Positions 2,428-34,510 of a stretch of DNA of 64,000 nucleotides are shown piece by piece. The notes under the pieces are model-generated. The model worked only from the letters and a program-made list of their open reading frames with translations, did not search any database and had not been told where the DNA came from. The stretch spans positions 124,001 through 188,000 of the forward strand of contig JANQKZ010000035.1 of the NCBI GenBank assembly GCA_028280845.1. The letters run 5' to 3'. Position 1 is the first letter of the stretch; each line of letters opens with the position of its first letter. Position numbers and translations under genes: made by a program. This DNA is from Opitutales bacterium (GTDB taxonomy: Bacteria; Verrucomicrobiota; Verrucomicrobiia; Opitutales; JABSRG01).

Positions 2428-2501
2428 GATCGCGTGAAAACGGTTCCCGTCCTTGTAAAATATGTTGAGGAGGAGGCAAAATCCGTCGGAAACCCATTGA
2501 C

Positions 2502-2517
2502 AAGGATCGAAATCCTT
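2502..2517 (+). promoter_or_regulatory. Perfect hairpin upstream of rpmJ
   Basis: AAGGAT-CGAA-ATCCTT is a perfect 6-bp stem with a 4-base loop, overlapping the last base of a TTGACA element (2497-2502) and 35 bp before the rpmJ start codon. It could be an operator for the ribosomal protein pair or an RNA hairpin in the leader. It does not match the known Zur consensus. No convincing -10 box is placed 17 bp from the TTGACA. Confidence 0.3.
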
Positions 2518-2551
2518 ACTTTTCTGTCCGTTTTCCCAAATTTCTAGACCG

Positions 2552-2677
2552 ATGAAAGTCGTATCGTCCATTAAAACTCTCAAAAATCGTCATCCCGACT
2601 GCCAGGTGGTTCGCCGGAAGGGACGTATTTATGTGATTAACAAAACCAACCCGCGCTTCAAGGCTCGGCAAGGTTAA
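2552..2677 (+). CDS. rpmJ: 50S ribosomal protein L36 (zinc-free type)
   Basis: A 41-residue protein beginning [20 protein letters not shown] and ending NPRFKARQG, the pattern of the longer L36 paralogue lacking the zinc-binding Cys/His set (only one Cys remains). L36 is a small basic protein of the large ribosomal subunit. It pairs with the type B L31 gene 19 bp downstream, as in many bacteria, and the pair ends in a strong terminator. Confidence 0.95.
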
Positions 2678-2696
2678 TTCAAATTTCGTTTCATCC

Positions 2697-2942
2697 ATGA
2701 AAGCCGCCATCCATCCGCAGTTGAACAACGTCTGCTTCGTAGACGTGTCTTCCGGAAAGAAATTCCTGACCAAGTCCACCATGAAGTCGCAACGCACCGA
2801 AAATATCGACGGTGAAGACTACTTCGTGATCGTGCGCGACATCACGTCTGACTCCCACCCGGCCTTCACCGGTGAAAAGCGCTTCGTGGACACCGCAGGT
2901 CGCGTGGAGAAGTTTCAAAACAAATTCCGTCGCCGCCGCTAA
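2697..2942 (+). CDS. rpmE2: 50S ribosomal protein L31 type B
   Basis: An 81-residue L31 of the zinc-independent B type: it starts MKAAIHPQLNNVCFVDVSSG, has 'STMKSQRTENIDGEDYFVIVRDITSDSHPAFTGEKRFVDTAGRVE' like middle features and ends in a basic FQNKFRRRR tail. The CxxC zinc motif of type A L31 is absent. It lies in the large ribosomal subunit at the intersubunit bridge. It is co-transcribed with rpmJ and is followed within 20 bp by an intrinsic terminator. Confidence 0.95.
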   Translation: MKAAIHPQLNNVCFVDVSSGKKFLTKSTMKSQRTENIDGEDYFVIVRDITSDSHPAFTGEKRFVDTAGRVEKFQNKFRRRR

Positions 2943-2960
2943 CTGCGCCAGACTTTCCAG

Positions 2961-2989
2961 CCCTTCCGGTCCCCCGGAAGGGTTTTTTT
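2961..2989 (+). terminator. Intrinsic terminator after rpmJ-rpmE2
   Basis: CCCTTCCGG (2961-2969) and CCGGAAGGG (2974-2982) form a perfect 9-bp GC-rich stem with a 4-base loop. It is followed at once by seven T residues. Confidence 0.95.
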
Positions 2990-3425
2990 ATGCCCGGACC
3001 CCAAGGGGTGTCAATACGCTGTGTATATACACCTGGAGTGGGGAAGACGGCGGGATTGTGGAGGGGCGTGGAATATGGTAGCGGACTTCTGGATCTAAAT
3101 AGGAATCATACATGACGATGGAGCCGGAATCCTATGTAACGGTAGTGAAAACTGGATGGCCAGCGCTCGCGCCATGTCCTGGCGAATCGATTCCCCGATG
3201 ACCAAGTTGCTGGTCTCCCAGTGACGCAGGAAATGCCGGGTTGTCATCTGGTAGGTCCGGAAGCCTCGACATTGCCGCACCAGGTGATGACGGTGATGCA
3301 CTTGAAGGATGATGTCCGGGTCATCCCGGAAAGGGTTCATATTCATCCCGGGCTCAACGAGGCGATTCTAGCCGCGACCGTTCGGGTAATCGGGGAGGTT
3401 CGGGCCTGGCAGGCGAGACGAAAGA
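2990..3425. other. Intergenic stretch without a supported gene
   Basis: About 435 bp between the L31 terminator and the coiled-coil gene on the other strand. Short open frames occur on both strands (for example an 83-codon reverse frame at 3095-3346 and a forward frame from 3221 that runs into the next gene). None has a recognisable motif or ribosome-binding site. It may hold a decayed gene; nothing firm is seen. Confidence 0.4.
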
Positions 3426-3707
3426 TTAGCCCTTCCTTACTTTTTCTTTGGCAGCTTCCAGTTCGTCCTGGAGGCGGGTGCGTTCATCGCGGAGCTGGCG
3501 CTCCAGCTGTTCGATATCCTGTGAGTTTCCTTCCTGGCGGGCCTTGATCAGTTTATCAGACAGGAAGACCTCCCGCTCGGCAATTTTGGCCTTATATTTT
3601 TGGTCGATGTCGGCCAGGGTTTGTTTCTGTTCTGGAGACAGAGGGGTGCCAGCATCCGGGTCTTCTTTGGTCAGACGCTCCATGGCGAGTTCATATGCGG
3701 ATTTCAT
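3426..3707 (-). CDS. Small charged coiled-coil protein
   Basis: A 93-residue, highly charged protein predicted to be almost entirely helical. Heptad-like Glu/Lys/Leu patterns run from about residue 25 to the C-terminus ('IEQLERQLRDERTRLQDELEAAKEKVRKG' like tail). There is no signal peptide or membrane segment. Its start codon overlaps the stop of the comEC-like gene, so the two are translationally coupled in an operon thiD-comEC-coiled-coil. The function is unknown; a structural or adaptor role is only a guess. Confidence 0.7.
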   Translation of the reverse strand: MKSAYELAMERLTKEDPDAGTPLSPEQKQTLADIDQKYKAKIAEREVFLSDKLIKARQEGNSQDIEQLERQLRDERTRLQDELEAAKEKVRKG

Positions 3708-31712: not shown

Positions 31713-32027
31713 ATGATAAATGTCTTGCTTCTCTGCCTTGCCGGGCTGTGCCTGGCACGGACGGCCCATGGCATGGGCCCCGTTTTTCAAACGGGGTTCG
31801 AAGCTTCTGGGTCCCCGGTGGGCGATCGCTTTGGGCAACCCCCTGTGGATCAGCCTGACTTCGGGATTCATGCGGTAGACTCCGCCCCCCGGAATGCAAT
31901 GGCCGCTACCACCGCTCCGGAGCCCGGATGCATGGCCTTTCTGCCAGGCGTCCGCATCGCCGGTCTTGTGGGCCTGCGCCACCGTTGTGGTCTGAGGCTT
32001 GGCCTGACAGGCGGGTGGGCGATTTGA
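31713..32027 (+). CDS. Short secreted protein with PEP-CTERM-like end (possibly internally deleted)
   Basis: A 104-residue frame that starts with a signal peptide (MINVLLLCLAGLCLARTAHG). It continues 'MGPVFQTGFEASGSPVGDRFG', typical of the start of secreted verrucomicrobial proteins. After only about 30 further residues it enters 'APEPGCMAFLPGVRIAGLVGLRHRCG', which looks like a PEP-CTERM sorting tail (Pro-Glu-Pro, hydrophobic span, Arg). Joining both ends with almost nothing between suggests an internal deletion of a larger surface protein, or a very small surface protein. The hydrophobic span is weak. Confidence 0.5.
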   Translation: MINVLLLCLAGLCLARTAHGMGPVFQTGFEASGSPVGDRFGQPPVDQPDFGIHAVDSAPRNAMAATTAPEPGCMAFLPGVRIAGLVGLRHRCGLRLGLTGGWAI

Positions 32028-32107: not shown

Positions 32108-32824
32108 ATGCCACACACATTCACTTTATGGTTCACCGGATGCCTCCTGGTGCTGACCAGCTCCCTTGCGCAGGCGCAGCTCAACCTTTCGATAACGTTT
32201 AGCCCTACTTTTGTAAGCGGGGCAGATCCCCACGGCCTTGCCGCCTCGACCTGGACGATGTCCTTCGAAGTTCCGGATACATATGATGGTCGCATAACTC
32301 CCGGCGTATCGGCATCGCAAGGCACCCTTGAGGTGGCGGGTTCCAGTGGTGTGGATGGCACGTATAGCATTACCAGTAATGATACGGGTTTTCCCGCTTT
32401 CAGTTTCCAACCTTACTTCGCTGGCTTCGTCTTGTTTGGTCTCGCAAATACCGGACCGAATACCTTCTCATTTGCCGGGATCACAATCACCGATTTCGCT
32501 CCGCTCGGCTCGGAACCCAACCTGAGTTCCACGCCCGCAAACGATTCTGCGGTGAGACCAAGTGACTTTGATGGCGTGCGGGTCAGCACTGCGGTTTTGC
32601 GCGATAGTTTCCTGGCAAGCAGTAGTTCGGGAAACGGTCGCTTCAGCTTCAGCAACGTTCCGATCACCGCCACTGCCATCCCTGAGCCCGGGTTTGCCCC
32701 CCTGGCACTGGGGATTGTGATGGGGTTGATCATCGCGTGTCGCCGTCTGTTTCGCCCGGCGTCGAAATGCCTTCATCGGTCATCAGACAGAATGGGGGGT
32801 CAAGCCCGTGGCTCGCGTGGCTGA
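32108..32824 (+). CDS. PEP-CTERM sorting domain protein
   Basis: A 238-residue exported protein. The signal peptide covers about residues 1-23. The mature part is Ser/Thr/Gly-rich and beta-like ('TWTMSFEVPDTYDGRI', 'TFSFAGITITDFAPLG', 'GNGRFSFSNVPI'), and 'IPEPGFAPLALGIVMGLIIACRRLF' (about 191-215) is a PEP-CTERM signal recognised by an exosortase. The protein runs about 23 residues past the Arg cluster, longer than usual for such tails. No exosortase gene is in the window. It probably ends up on the cell surface or in the matrix. A hairpin element follows 44 bp after the stop. Confidence 0.85.
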   Translation: MPHTFTLWFTGCLLVLTSSLAQAQLNLSITFSPTFVSGADPHGLAASTWTMSFEVPDTYDGRITPGVSASQGTLEVAGSSGVDGTYSITSNDTGFPAFSFQPYFAGFVLFGLANTGPNTFSFAGITITDFAPLGSEPNLSSTPANDSAVRPSDFDGVRVSTAVLRDSFLASSSSGNGRFSFSNVPITATAIPEPGFAPLALGIVMGLIIACRRLFRPASKCLHRSSDRMGGQARGSRG

Positions 32825-32867
32825 TCCTGCTTTCACCCCTGCTCCGTTCCTTTTCATCCTGCCTTCT

Positions 32868-32943
32868 CCAACATTTTACTCCGTAGAGTAGACATAGCGC
32901 GAGAGTAAGCGAGAGAACCGACCGGTCCACGAGGGCCGGTCGG
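32868..32943 (+). ncRNA. Two-hairpin element, copy A
   Basis: The element begins CCAACATTTT. Hairpin 1 is TACTC-CGTA-GAGTA (32877-32890). A purine-rich linker containing AAGCGAGA follows, then hairpin 2 with CCGACCGG (32918-32925) and CCGGTCGG (32936-32943). It is followed by CCTTTTAGACTTCTTTT, so hairpin 2 may act as a terminator for the PEP-CTERM gene. The second copy at 33587 keeps both hairpins through compensatory base changes, which supports RNA structure. Strand is inferred from the gene before it. Confidence 0.5.
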
Positions 32944-33585
32944 CCTTTTAGACTTCTTTTCCGCACGAAGTTACCTCTCCTCGCGTCCCCGTTCTCTTGA
33001 TTTGAACGGGCGGATTCGAAACGATTCGGGCGTCGATGGAAAATCGTTCGGCAAAACGCGCTTATCATCGGGCCCGCCGTGGGGGACAATGCCCTCGTAT
33101 CGTCAGCAAAGTCGGCGAGATAGAGAGACTGTTGCACGACGGCTGTAAAGTCCCCACGCCCCTCCCATTGCCGTGACGAAGGCTATCAAGCCGGGCAAAT
33201 CGCATGGATGCCATGCCTTACGCCGGGAGAGGCTGTAGCCAATCGCGATAAATACTTCAGGGTTTTTGTCCGAATTGCGCAGCGTATTGCGCTTTGAATA
33301 TCAAGAGCACCAATTGGTTTCGCTCAACCAGATCAAAATTTCGCAATTTCCCGGCAATAACTCCACGACCTGCCCTTTAGGGTCTCTGGCTAAACTACCT
33401 CAACAGCACCTGCTACTTCCTTCACCATGAGATTACTGATGCGGTGCACCGCGTTAAGCGATCACCCGCATCAACCCTTCGACAGGTCCATCCCTTTATC
33501 GGGTTTTTAACGCCCTTGAAGTCTCCTCTCCCAGCTGATGAACCGCCTTAAAGAACCTTGAAGAGCTCGACTCCAGGATCCTTTC
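32944..33585. other. Non-coding stretch between the two hairpin elements
   Basis: About 640 bp with no supported gene. A reverse-strand frame crossing it (32730-33137) overlaps the PEP-CTERM gene and hairpin A and has no coding character. It may contain the remains of another surface protein gene, since each hairpin copy could mark a gene end, but no homology is recognisable. Confidence 0.4.
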
Positions 33586-33586
33586 C

Positions 33587-33655
33587 CCAACATTTTTTCT
33601 CTAGAGAATAGAGAGAGAATAAGCGAGACAACCGACCTGTCCGCGGGCAGGTCGG
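33587..33655 (+). ncRNA. Two-hairpin element, copy B
   Basis: It begins CCAACATTTT like copy A. Hairpin 1 is TTCTC-TA-GAGAA (33597-33608). The linker again holds AAGCGAGA, and hairpin 2 is CCGACCTG (33632-33639) with CAGGTCGG (33648-33655). Relative to copy A, one A-T pair is inverted in hairpin 1 and one G-C pair becomes T-A in hairpin 2. No T run follows copy B, so it is not simply a terminator. The gap to the response regulator stop (33860) is otherwise empty. Confidence 0.5.
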
Positions 33656-33859
33656 TCTCGCGGAGGAGGGAGCCGCTTCCACAAAGCGCTTTGATAGCGC
33701 AATGCCTTTATGGAAACAACAACTGGCGTGTTCCGATTTACCTATCGCCTGGCAGGTGATCCCGATGCTTATCAAGGTGGGGATGCCTTGCCCGGCTGAC
33801 CCGCTTGGCATTGGTTTGGGGTCGGTGCGTGAAATCACTTCCCGGCGACCGGATTGTAG

Positions 33860-34510
33860 TTATCGGATAAGGTAGCCCTGGCCATGCACGGTTGCGATCA
33901 GTTCCCTGCCCAGCTTTTTGCGCAGATGCGAAATATAGACGTGAATGAGATTGGTGGTCGCATCGCGGTGTTCATCGAGGAGGGATTCCAGCAAAACGGT
34001 CAGGGGCACCACCTGGCCTCGCCGCAGGACCAAGAGCCGTAAAATAGCGAATTGACGATGCGTGAGATGAACCTCTTTGTCGTCCCGGAAAACGCGGCGA
34101 GCCCCCAGATCGATTGCCACCGTCTGAATCTGGATCCGCGTCAAGGTTGCCTCCCGCCTTCTTCTCAGGATGGCCCGTAAGCGTGCGAGTAACTCCTCAC
34201 CTTCAAAGGGCTTGGTGAGATAATCATCCGCCCCACCATCGAGACCCCGGACGCGCGCGGAGAGCGCTTTACGTCCCGTGACGATCAAAACCGGGCCGCG
34301 GTAAGTCGCGCGGAGTTCCACTAGGGTCTCAAAGTCCTGGCGGTCCGGCAACCCGATATCGAGAATGATAGCGTCGTAATCGTGGATCTGGGCCTTAGCG
34401 ATGCCATCCTCGGCGTTTTTCGCGAGGTCGACGACATAGCTATCCCGGCGCAGCAGCAATTCCAATTGCTCCCGCATCCAACGATTGTCTTCGATGACCA
34501 GGACTTTCAT
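33860..34510 (-). CDS. Orphan OmpR/PhoB-type response regulator
   Basis: A 216-residue two-component response regulator. The receiver domain (1-115) has Asp8 in 'VIEDNRW', phospho-acceptor Asp51 in 'AIILDIGLPD', Thr78 in 'LIVTGRK' and Lys100 in 'DDYLTKPF'. The winged-helix DNA-binding domain (about 125-216) shows 'HLTHRQFAILRLLVLRRGQVV' and 'NLIHVYISHLRKKLGRELIATVHGQGYLIR', as in QseB/OmpR-like proteins. No histidine kinase gene is adjacent, so its partner is elsewhere or it is orphaned. Repeats directly upstream of its start suggest autoregulation. Confidence 0.94.
   Translation of the reverse strand: MKVLVIEDNRWMREQLELLLRRDSYVVDLAKNAEDGIAKAQIHDYDAIILDIGLPDRQDFETLVELRATYRGPVLIVTGRKALSARVRGLDGGADDYLTKPFEGEELLARLRAILRRRREATLTRIQIQTVAIDLGARRVFRDDKEVHLTHRQFAILRLLVLRRGQVVPLTVLLESLLDEHRDATTNLIHVYISHLRKKLGRELIATVHGQGYLIR

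Follow-up and report, generated by a model that had tools for sequence, protein, structure and literature searches.

Background

The closest described systems to the locus analysed here are the tandem sibling small RNAs, the intrinsic (Rho-independent) terminators and the REP and MITE-like extragenic palindromic repeats. In E. coli, OmrA (88 nt) and OmrB (82 nt) are encoded in tandem; their sequences are almost identical at the ends and differ in the middle (PMC4211561). Two compensatory changes can arise together in a single event through template switching, as has been documented (PMC8794818). We analysed a stretch of 64,000 nucleotides from an Opitutales bacterium (hereafter the window, to which positions refer unless the contig, C6, is named), in which an earlier note had described two copies, A and B, of a two-hairpin element.

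Position and homology of the two copies

The features of the locus were assigned as follows.

32108-32824, + strand: 238-aa ORF whose C-terminus, IPEPGFAPLALGIVMGLIIACRR, resembles PEP-CTERM (from the ORF list; the label is given by the motif alone)
32825-33859, no strand: intergenic gap (1,035 bp) between the two convergent genes, in which A and B lie; no recognisable gene or promoter-like site
32862-32947, + strand: copy A of the two-hairpin element, 86 bp (alignment with B; RNA fold z-score -4.6)
33581-33659, + strand: copy B of the two-hairpin element, 79 bp (alignment with A; RNA fold z-score -7.8)
33860-34510, - strand: gene for an OmpR-type response regulator, directed towards the gap (Pfam Response_reg and Trans_reg_C)

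The two copies lie about 0.7 kb apart in direct orientation. Their local alignment score was 67 (mean 14 and maximum 28 in 5,000 dinucleotide shuffles), and the blastn E value within the window was about 3e-10; the similar segment has sharp borders and a length of about 80 bp, and the 300-bp flanks of A and B were no more similar to each other than shuffles. A and B are thus homologous beyond doubt. Their divergence is clustered in alignment columns 17-32. The copy coordinates in the earlier note were correct, and the words that it had reported as common, CCAACATTTT and AAGCGAGA, are present in both.

About 40 nt separate the stop of the 238-aa ORF on the + strand from the start of copy A, and copy B is located about 200 bp beyond the stop of the response regulator gene. 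At the limits used, searches of Pfam and NCBIfam returned nothing for the 238-aa ORF. For the response regulator, no orthologue was available in the family relative G001 for synteny comparison (best match, 38% identity). The gap between the two genes is one of four gaps of at least 900 bp on the 369-kb contig, of which the median gap is 74 bp. A decayed gene in this gap was considered and rejected, the peptides of the gap being without any Pfam match; a sigma70-like promoter was not found upstream of A or B, and the promoters of this phylum may differ. The proposal that the element is a gene-end element of surface-protein genes was not borne out, because none of the nine other PEP-CTERM matches in the genome (0 of 9) carries it downstream; it is therefore not a general gene-end element.

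Two further observations concern the surroundings. Just upstream of the PEP-CTERM-like ORF is an ORF of 104 aa (31713-32027) whose start (MINVLLLCLAGLCLARTAHG...) resembles a signal peptide. It matched nothing in Pfam or NCBIfam and may be a piece of a gene for a secreted protein. The longest gap of the contig (1,276 bp; C6 126428-127703, window 2428-3703) is likewise convergent; it contains no gene of at least 150 aa and has a clear terminator hairpin with a T5 tail (C6 126959-126984).

Structure of the hairpins

Base-pair probabilities were used for the following assignments.

32875-32892, + strand: hairpin 1 of copy A, proximal form, TTTACTC-CGTA-GAGTAGA
32918-32943, + strand: hairpin 2 of copy A, an inverted repeat of 11 pairs with the loop ACGA, followed by CCTTTTAGACTT (pair probabilities about 1.0)
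33592-33620, + strand: predicted form of hairpin 1 in copy B, in which a pyrimidine-rich arm forms 12 pairs with a purine-rich one; it is not the TTCTC/GAGAA stem of the earlier note
33632-33655 within 33623-33661, + strand: hairpin 2 of copy B, with the outward extension GCGAGA/TCTCGC and without a U tail on this strand

Hairpin 2, which had been claimed for both copies, is firm in each: its core is the same in A and B, with pair probabilities near 1. Between the copies, two substitutions were found in the 22 stem positions, and these face each other and change G-C to U-A; both copies retain a U.G wobble, which lies two pairs inward of this swap. When two random changes were simulated in the stem of hairpin 2, all 11 pairs survived in about 5% of the trials. 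Since random changes keep all pairs standard at this frequency, the single double change is suggestive and is no proof of a selected structure.

The compensation in hairpin 1 (TACTC/GAGTA to TTCTC/GAGAA) had been overstated. The TTCTC/GAGAA stem would close a loop of two bases in B (TA only), so that its innermost pair is impossible, and the alternative with four pairs around a CTAG loop is worth only -0.3 kcal/mol. Instead, positions 33592-33603 of B were predicted to pair with 33609-33620 at probabilities of 0.85-1.0. In A, the 5' arm of hairpin 1 has two competing partners, a proximal one (32886-32892) and a distal one (32899-32909), at about 53:47. A and B pair in different registers here, the partner in B being the more distal. 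Three pairs of hairpin 1 were flagged by RNAalifold as changed on both sides, because of a one-base shift in the alignment of A with B. Of the compensatory change claimed in each stem, one true double change, that of hairpin 2, thus stands and that of hairpin 1 does not, and the pair-by-pair evidence of covariation reduces to one base pair.

The preservation of folding strength was evaluated by simulation. When A was randomly mutated by the observed amount, 0.4% of the variants (0.004) were as stable as B, and the corresponding figure for B mutated towards A was 0.1% (0.001); with random letters placed at the observed positions of A, the figure was 1.35% (0.0135). Folding strength was kept better than random change predicts, and we conclude with moderate firmness that the structure has been preserved. 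This preservation fits either selection on an RNA or copying of one arm onto the other at the DNA level, and does not discriminate between them. The earlier interpretation is accordingly supported, to a moderate degree, as to preserved folding; its covariation part shrinks to one pair, which is obtainable by a single template switch.

Terminator features

A GC-rich stem-loop does follow a gene end, hairpin 2 of copy A being located 93 nt beyond the stop of the + strand ORF, and a U-rich tract right after the stem, as in intrinsic terminators, was found in neither A nor B. The + strand tail of A, CCTTTTAGAC, scored -2.48 (weak), and that of B was about equal (-2.65). On the minus strand, the two tails were equal and moderately T-rich (-3.56 for A and -3.58 for B), somewhat better than those on the + strand; the 5th percentile of the tail-score background was -3.15. 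Clear terminators on the same contig have T5-8 tails with scores from -4.83 to -5.77, and such a tail is missing from both A and B; no terminator was called at either copy by a consensus terminator scan. The statement that only A has a T-rich tail consequently depends on the strand. Thirteen strong intergenic hairpins, the clear terminators among them, were counted on the contig; they tend to lie near gene ends, several of them without T tails, and strong hairpins in such positions are ordinary here.

Search for further copies

A covariance model was built from copies A and B and was used on their own and on related genomes. In the own genome (97.7% complete), exactly two places were found with the model, A and B themselves; no third copy was detected by DNA search, patterns or the model, nor when the model was run unfiltered over 100 kb of the contig. 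For the relatives, overlapping draws of 372 order, 387 phylum and 384 class genomes were searched, and only background matches were obtained; G001 had no copy. Outside the genome the model scored at best 32.0 bits in the order draw and 29.8 bits in the phylum draw, compared with 97-110 bits for A and B. Rfam gave no match, either for the window at the gathering threshold or for the region when E values up to 5 were admitted, and none to A or B was found in phage and plasmid collections. The search with the covariance model that had been proposed thus brought no further covarying copies, and the suggestion of a mobile hairpin gained no copies beyond A and B. To gain more weight, the covariation claim would need close relatives.

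Several candidates were rejected. Among the order matches at 20-32 bits, one (L049) was located inside an ORF, and several were hairpins resembling terminators and preceded by A-rich leaders. Seventeen-base pattern matches in the relatives were not two-hairpin elements. The genome-wide pattern CCAACATTTT-gap-TAAGCGAGA had 41 matches (about 46 were estimated by chance), none above the model background (best, 19.5 bits). Pattern matches in viral contigs were not above background under the model either, and the short matches that the gap had elsewhere, in other genomes, were attributed to chance.

The 29.8-bit phylum match belongs to a modular hairpin repeat of about 143 bp in a 2.7-Mb genome of the same phylum (G385), with about 50 matches, copies or pieces (L105:1440-1582 on the minus strand, and L113-L132). 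The first approximately 78 bases of this repeat are also found alone, and it carries a short, probably spurious ORF (MFPIWGDDAKESGKTSF...). It looks like a family of the REP/MITE type. Its layout is similar to that of A and B; as a relative it was rejected, since shuffles did at least as well at frequencies of 0.02 (A) and 0.2 (B). On the contig itself, a hairpin of 13 pairs (L148; C6 59765-59795) has CTAAGCGAGAG across its loop; this word is also present in A and B in a different arrangement, probably by chance.

Discussion

The reading that we tentatively prefer is that A and B are a locally duplicated 3'-end hairpin element in the 1,035-bp convergent gap. The pair looks like a small local duplication and not like a new RNA family, because no other copy was found in the genome or in the relatives searched. 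A hairpin unit of about 80 bp would have been duplicated locally, and its GC-rich hairpin 2 could be the 3'-end stem-loop of a + or - strand transcript, acting as a weak, possibly bidirectional terminator or, alternatively, as a barrier guarding an RNA end after Rho-dependent termination. Since the duplication, the folding would have been kept, and the purine/pyrimidine-rich segment of hairpin 1 upstream would have drifted and re-paired. The sharply bounded homology of exactly two copies side by side points to this reading, as do a hairpin 2 that is stable in both with its G-C to U-A swap and retained U.G wobble, folding better than random change allows, the position of A after the + strand gene and of B in the gap beyond the - strand gene, and the other strong hairpins near gene ends of the contig, several of which are without T tails. 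Against it are the lack of the T5-8 tails of the genome's clear terminators and the distance of about 200 bp from B to the nearest gene end. A terminator also needs no common 5' leader (CCAACATTTT), which a young duplication would, however, retain anyway.

The same layout could be that of tandem sibling small RNAs, that is, two candidate RNAs of about 80 nt from one duplicated gene. The two would share a 5' leader, which could serve as a seed, and a 3' hairpin, and would differ in the hairpin between them. Length and layout resemble those of OmrA/OmrB (PMC4211561), the divergence is concentrated in columns 17-32, the gap is among the longest of the contig and holds no protein gene, and the units are related with RNA folding preserved; but neither copy has a sigma70-like promoter upstream (the promoters of the phylum may differ), B has no U tail and that of A is weak, and there were no orthologues in the sampled order, class and phylum relatives and no Rfam match, so that we consider such RNAs possible but unlikely. 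A narrower form, a lineage-specific pair of sibling regulatory RNAs beside the response regulator gene, with hairpin 1 two-state in A (about 53:47) and fixed in B, is quite improbable. The double change in hairpin 2 may have arisen at the DNA level, by a template switch at a quasi-palindrome that copied one arm onto the other without selection on RNA; this would explain the pattern of change and is compatible with any identity of the element. Such an event can make double compensatory changes at once (PMC8794818) and only one pair was changed, yet the U.G wobble two pairs away is uncorrected in both copies, which would restrict the copying to a short patch, and overall folding is preserved beyond random expectation; we regard this origin as rather unlikely.

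A small REP- or MITE-type mobile hairpin that made one extra copy, became extinct and left A and B as its remnant would account for bounded homology without similar flanks, and hairpin repeats of this sort occur in the phylum (about 50 copies or pieces of about 143 bp in G385). We find it doubtful, given that this genome, 97.7% complete, has only two copies, adjacent and in direct orientation, that no clear target-site duplication was seen by eye, that viral, phage and plasmid collections gave nothing, and that the G385 repeat is not convincingly related (0.02 for A and 0.2 for B). That the repeats are DNA dyads bound by a regulator, such as the neighbouring response regulator, and not RNA hairpins, is very improbable: a perfect 12-bp palindrome, TTCTCTAGAGAA, is contained in B and the regulator gene adjoins, but both copies lie past gene ends and not upstream of genes, and the palindrome is not retained as such in A.

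If A and B are gene-end hairpins, as in the reading preferred here, the main lesson of the case is that one double change between paralogues is poor evidence of a new RNA family, and that re-pairing of hairpins and template switching can mimic covariation. If they are sibling small RNAs, they would be candidates in a lineage of the Verrucomicrobiota type in which little work on RNA has been done.

Compared with known systems, A and B are like intrinsic terminators in having a GC-rich hairpin after a gene with a weak T-rich tail, and unlike them in their tail scores (-2.5 to -3.6, versus -4.8 to -5.8 for the clear terminators) and in the extra conserved 5' segment. With the REP and MITE-like repeats they share an extragenic, bounded, hairpin-forming unit; those repeats, however, have many dispersed copies, whereas A and B are just two, adjacent, in one genome. 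Unlike OmrA/OmrB, the pair is known from its sequence alone and has no promoter-like site, no U tail in B and no orthologues found; like OmrA/OmrB and other tandem sibling small RNAs, it consists of two tandem units of about 80 nt with conserved ends, a divergent middle and a 3' hairpin.
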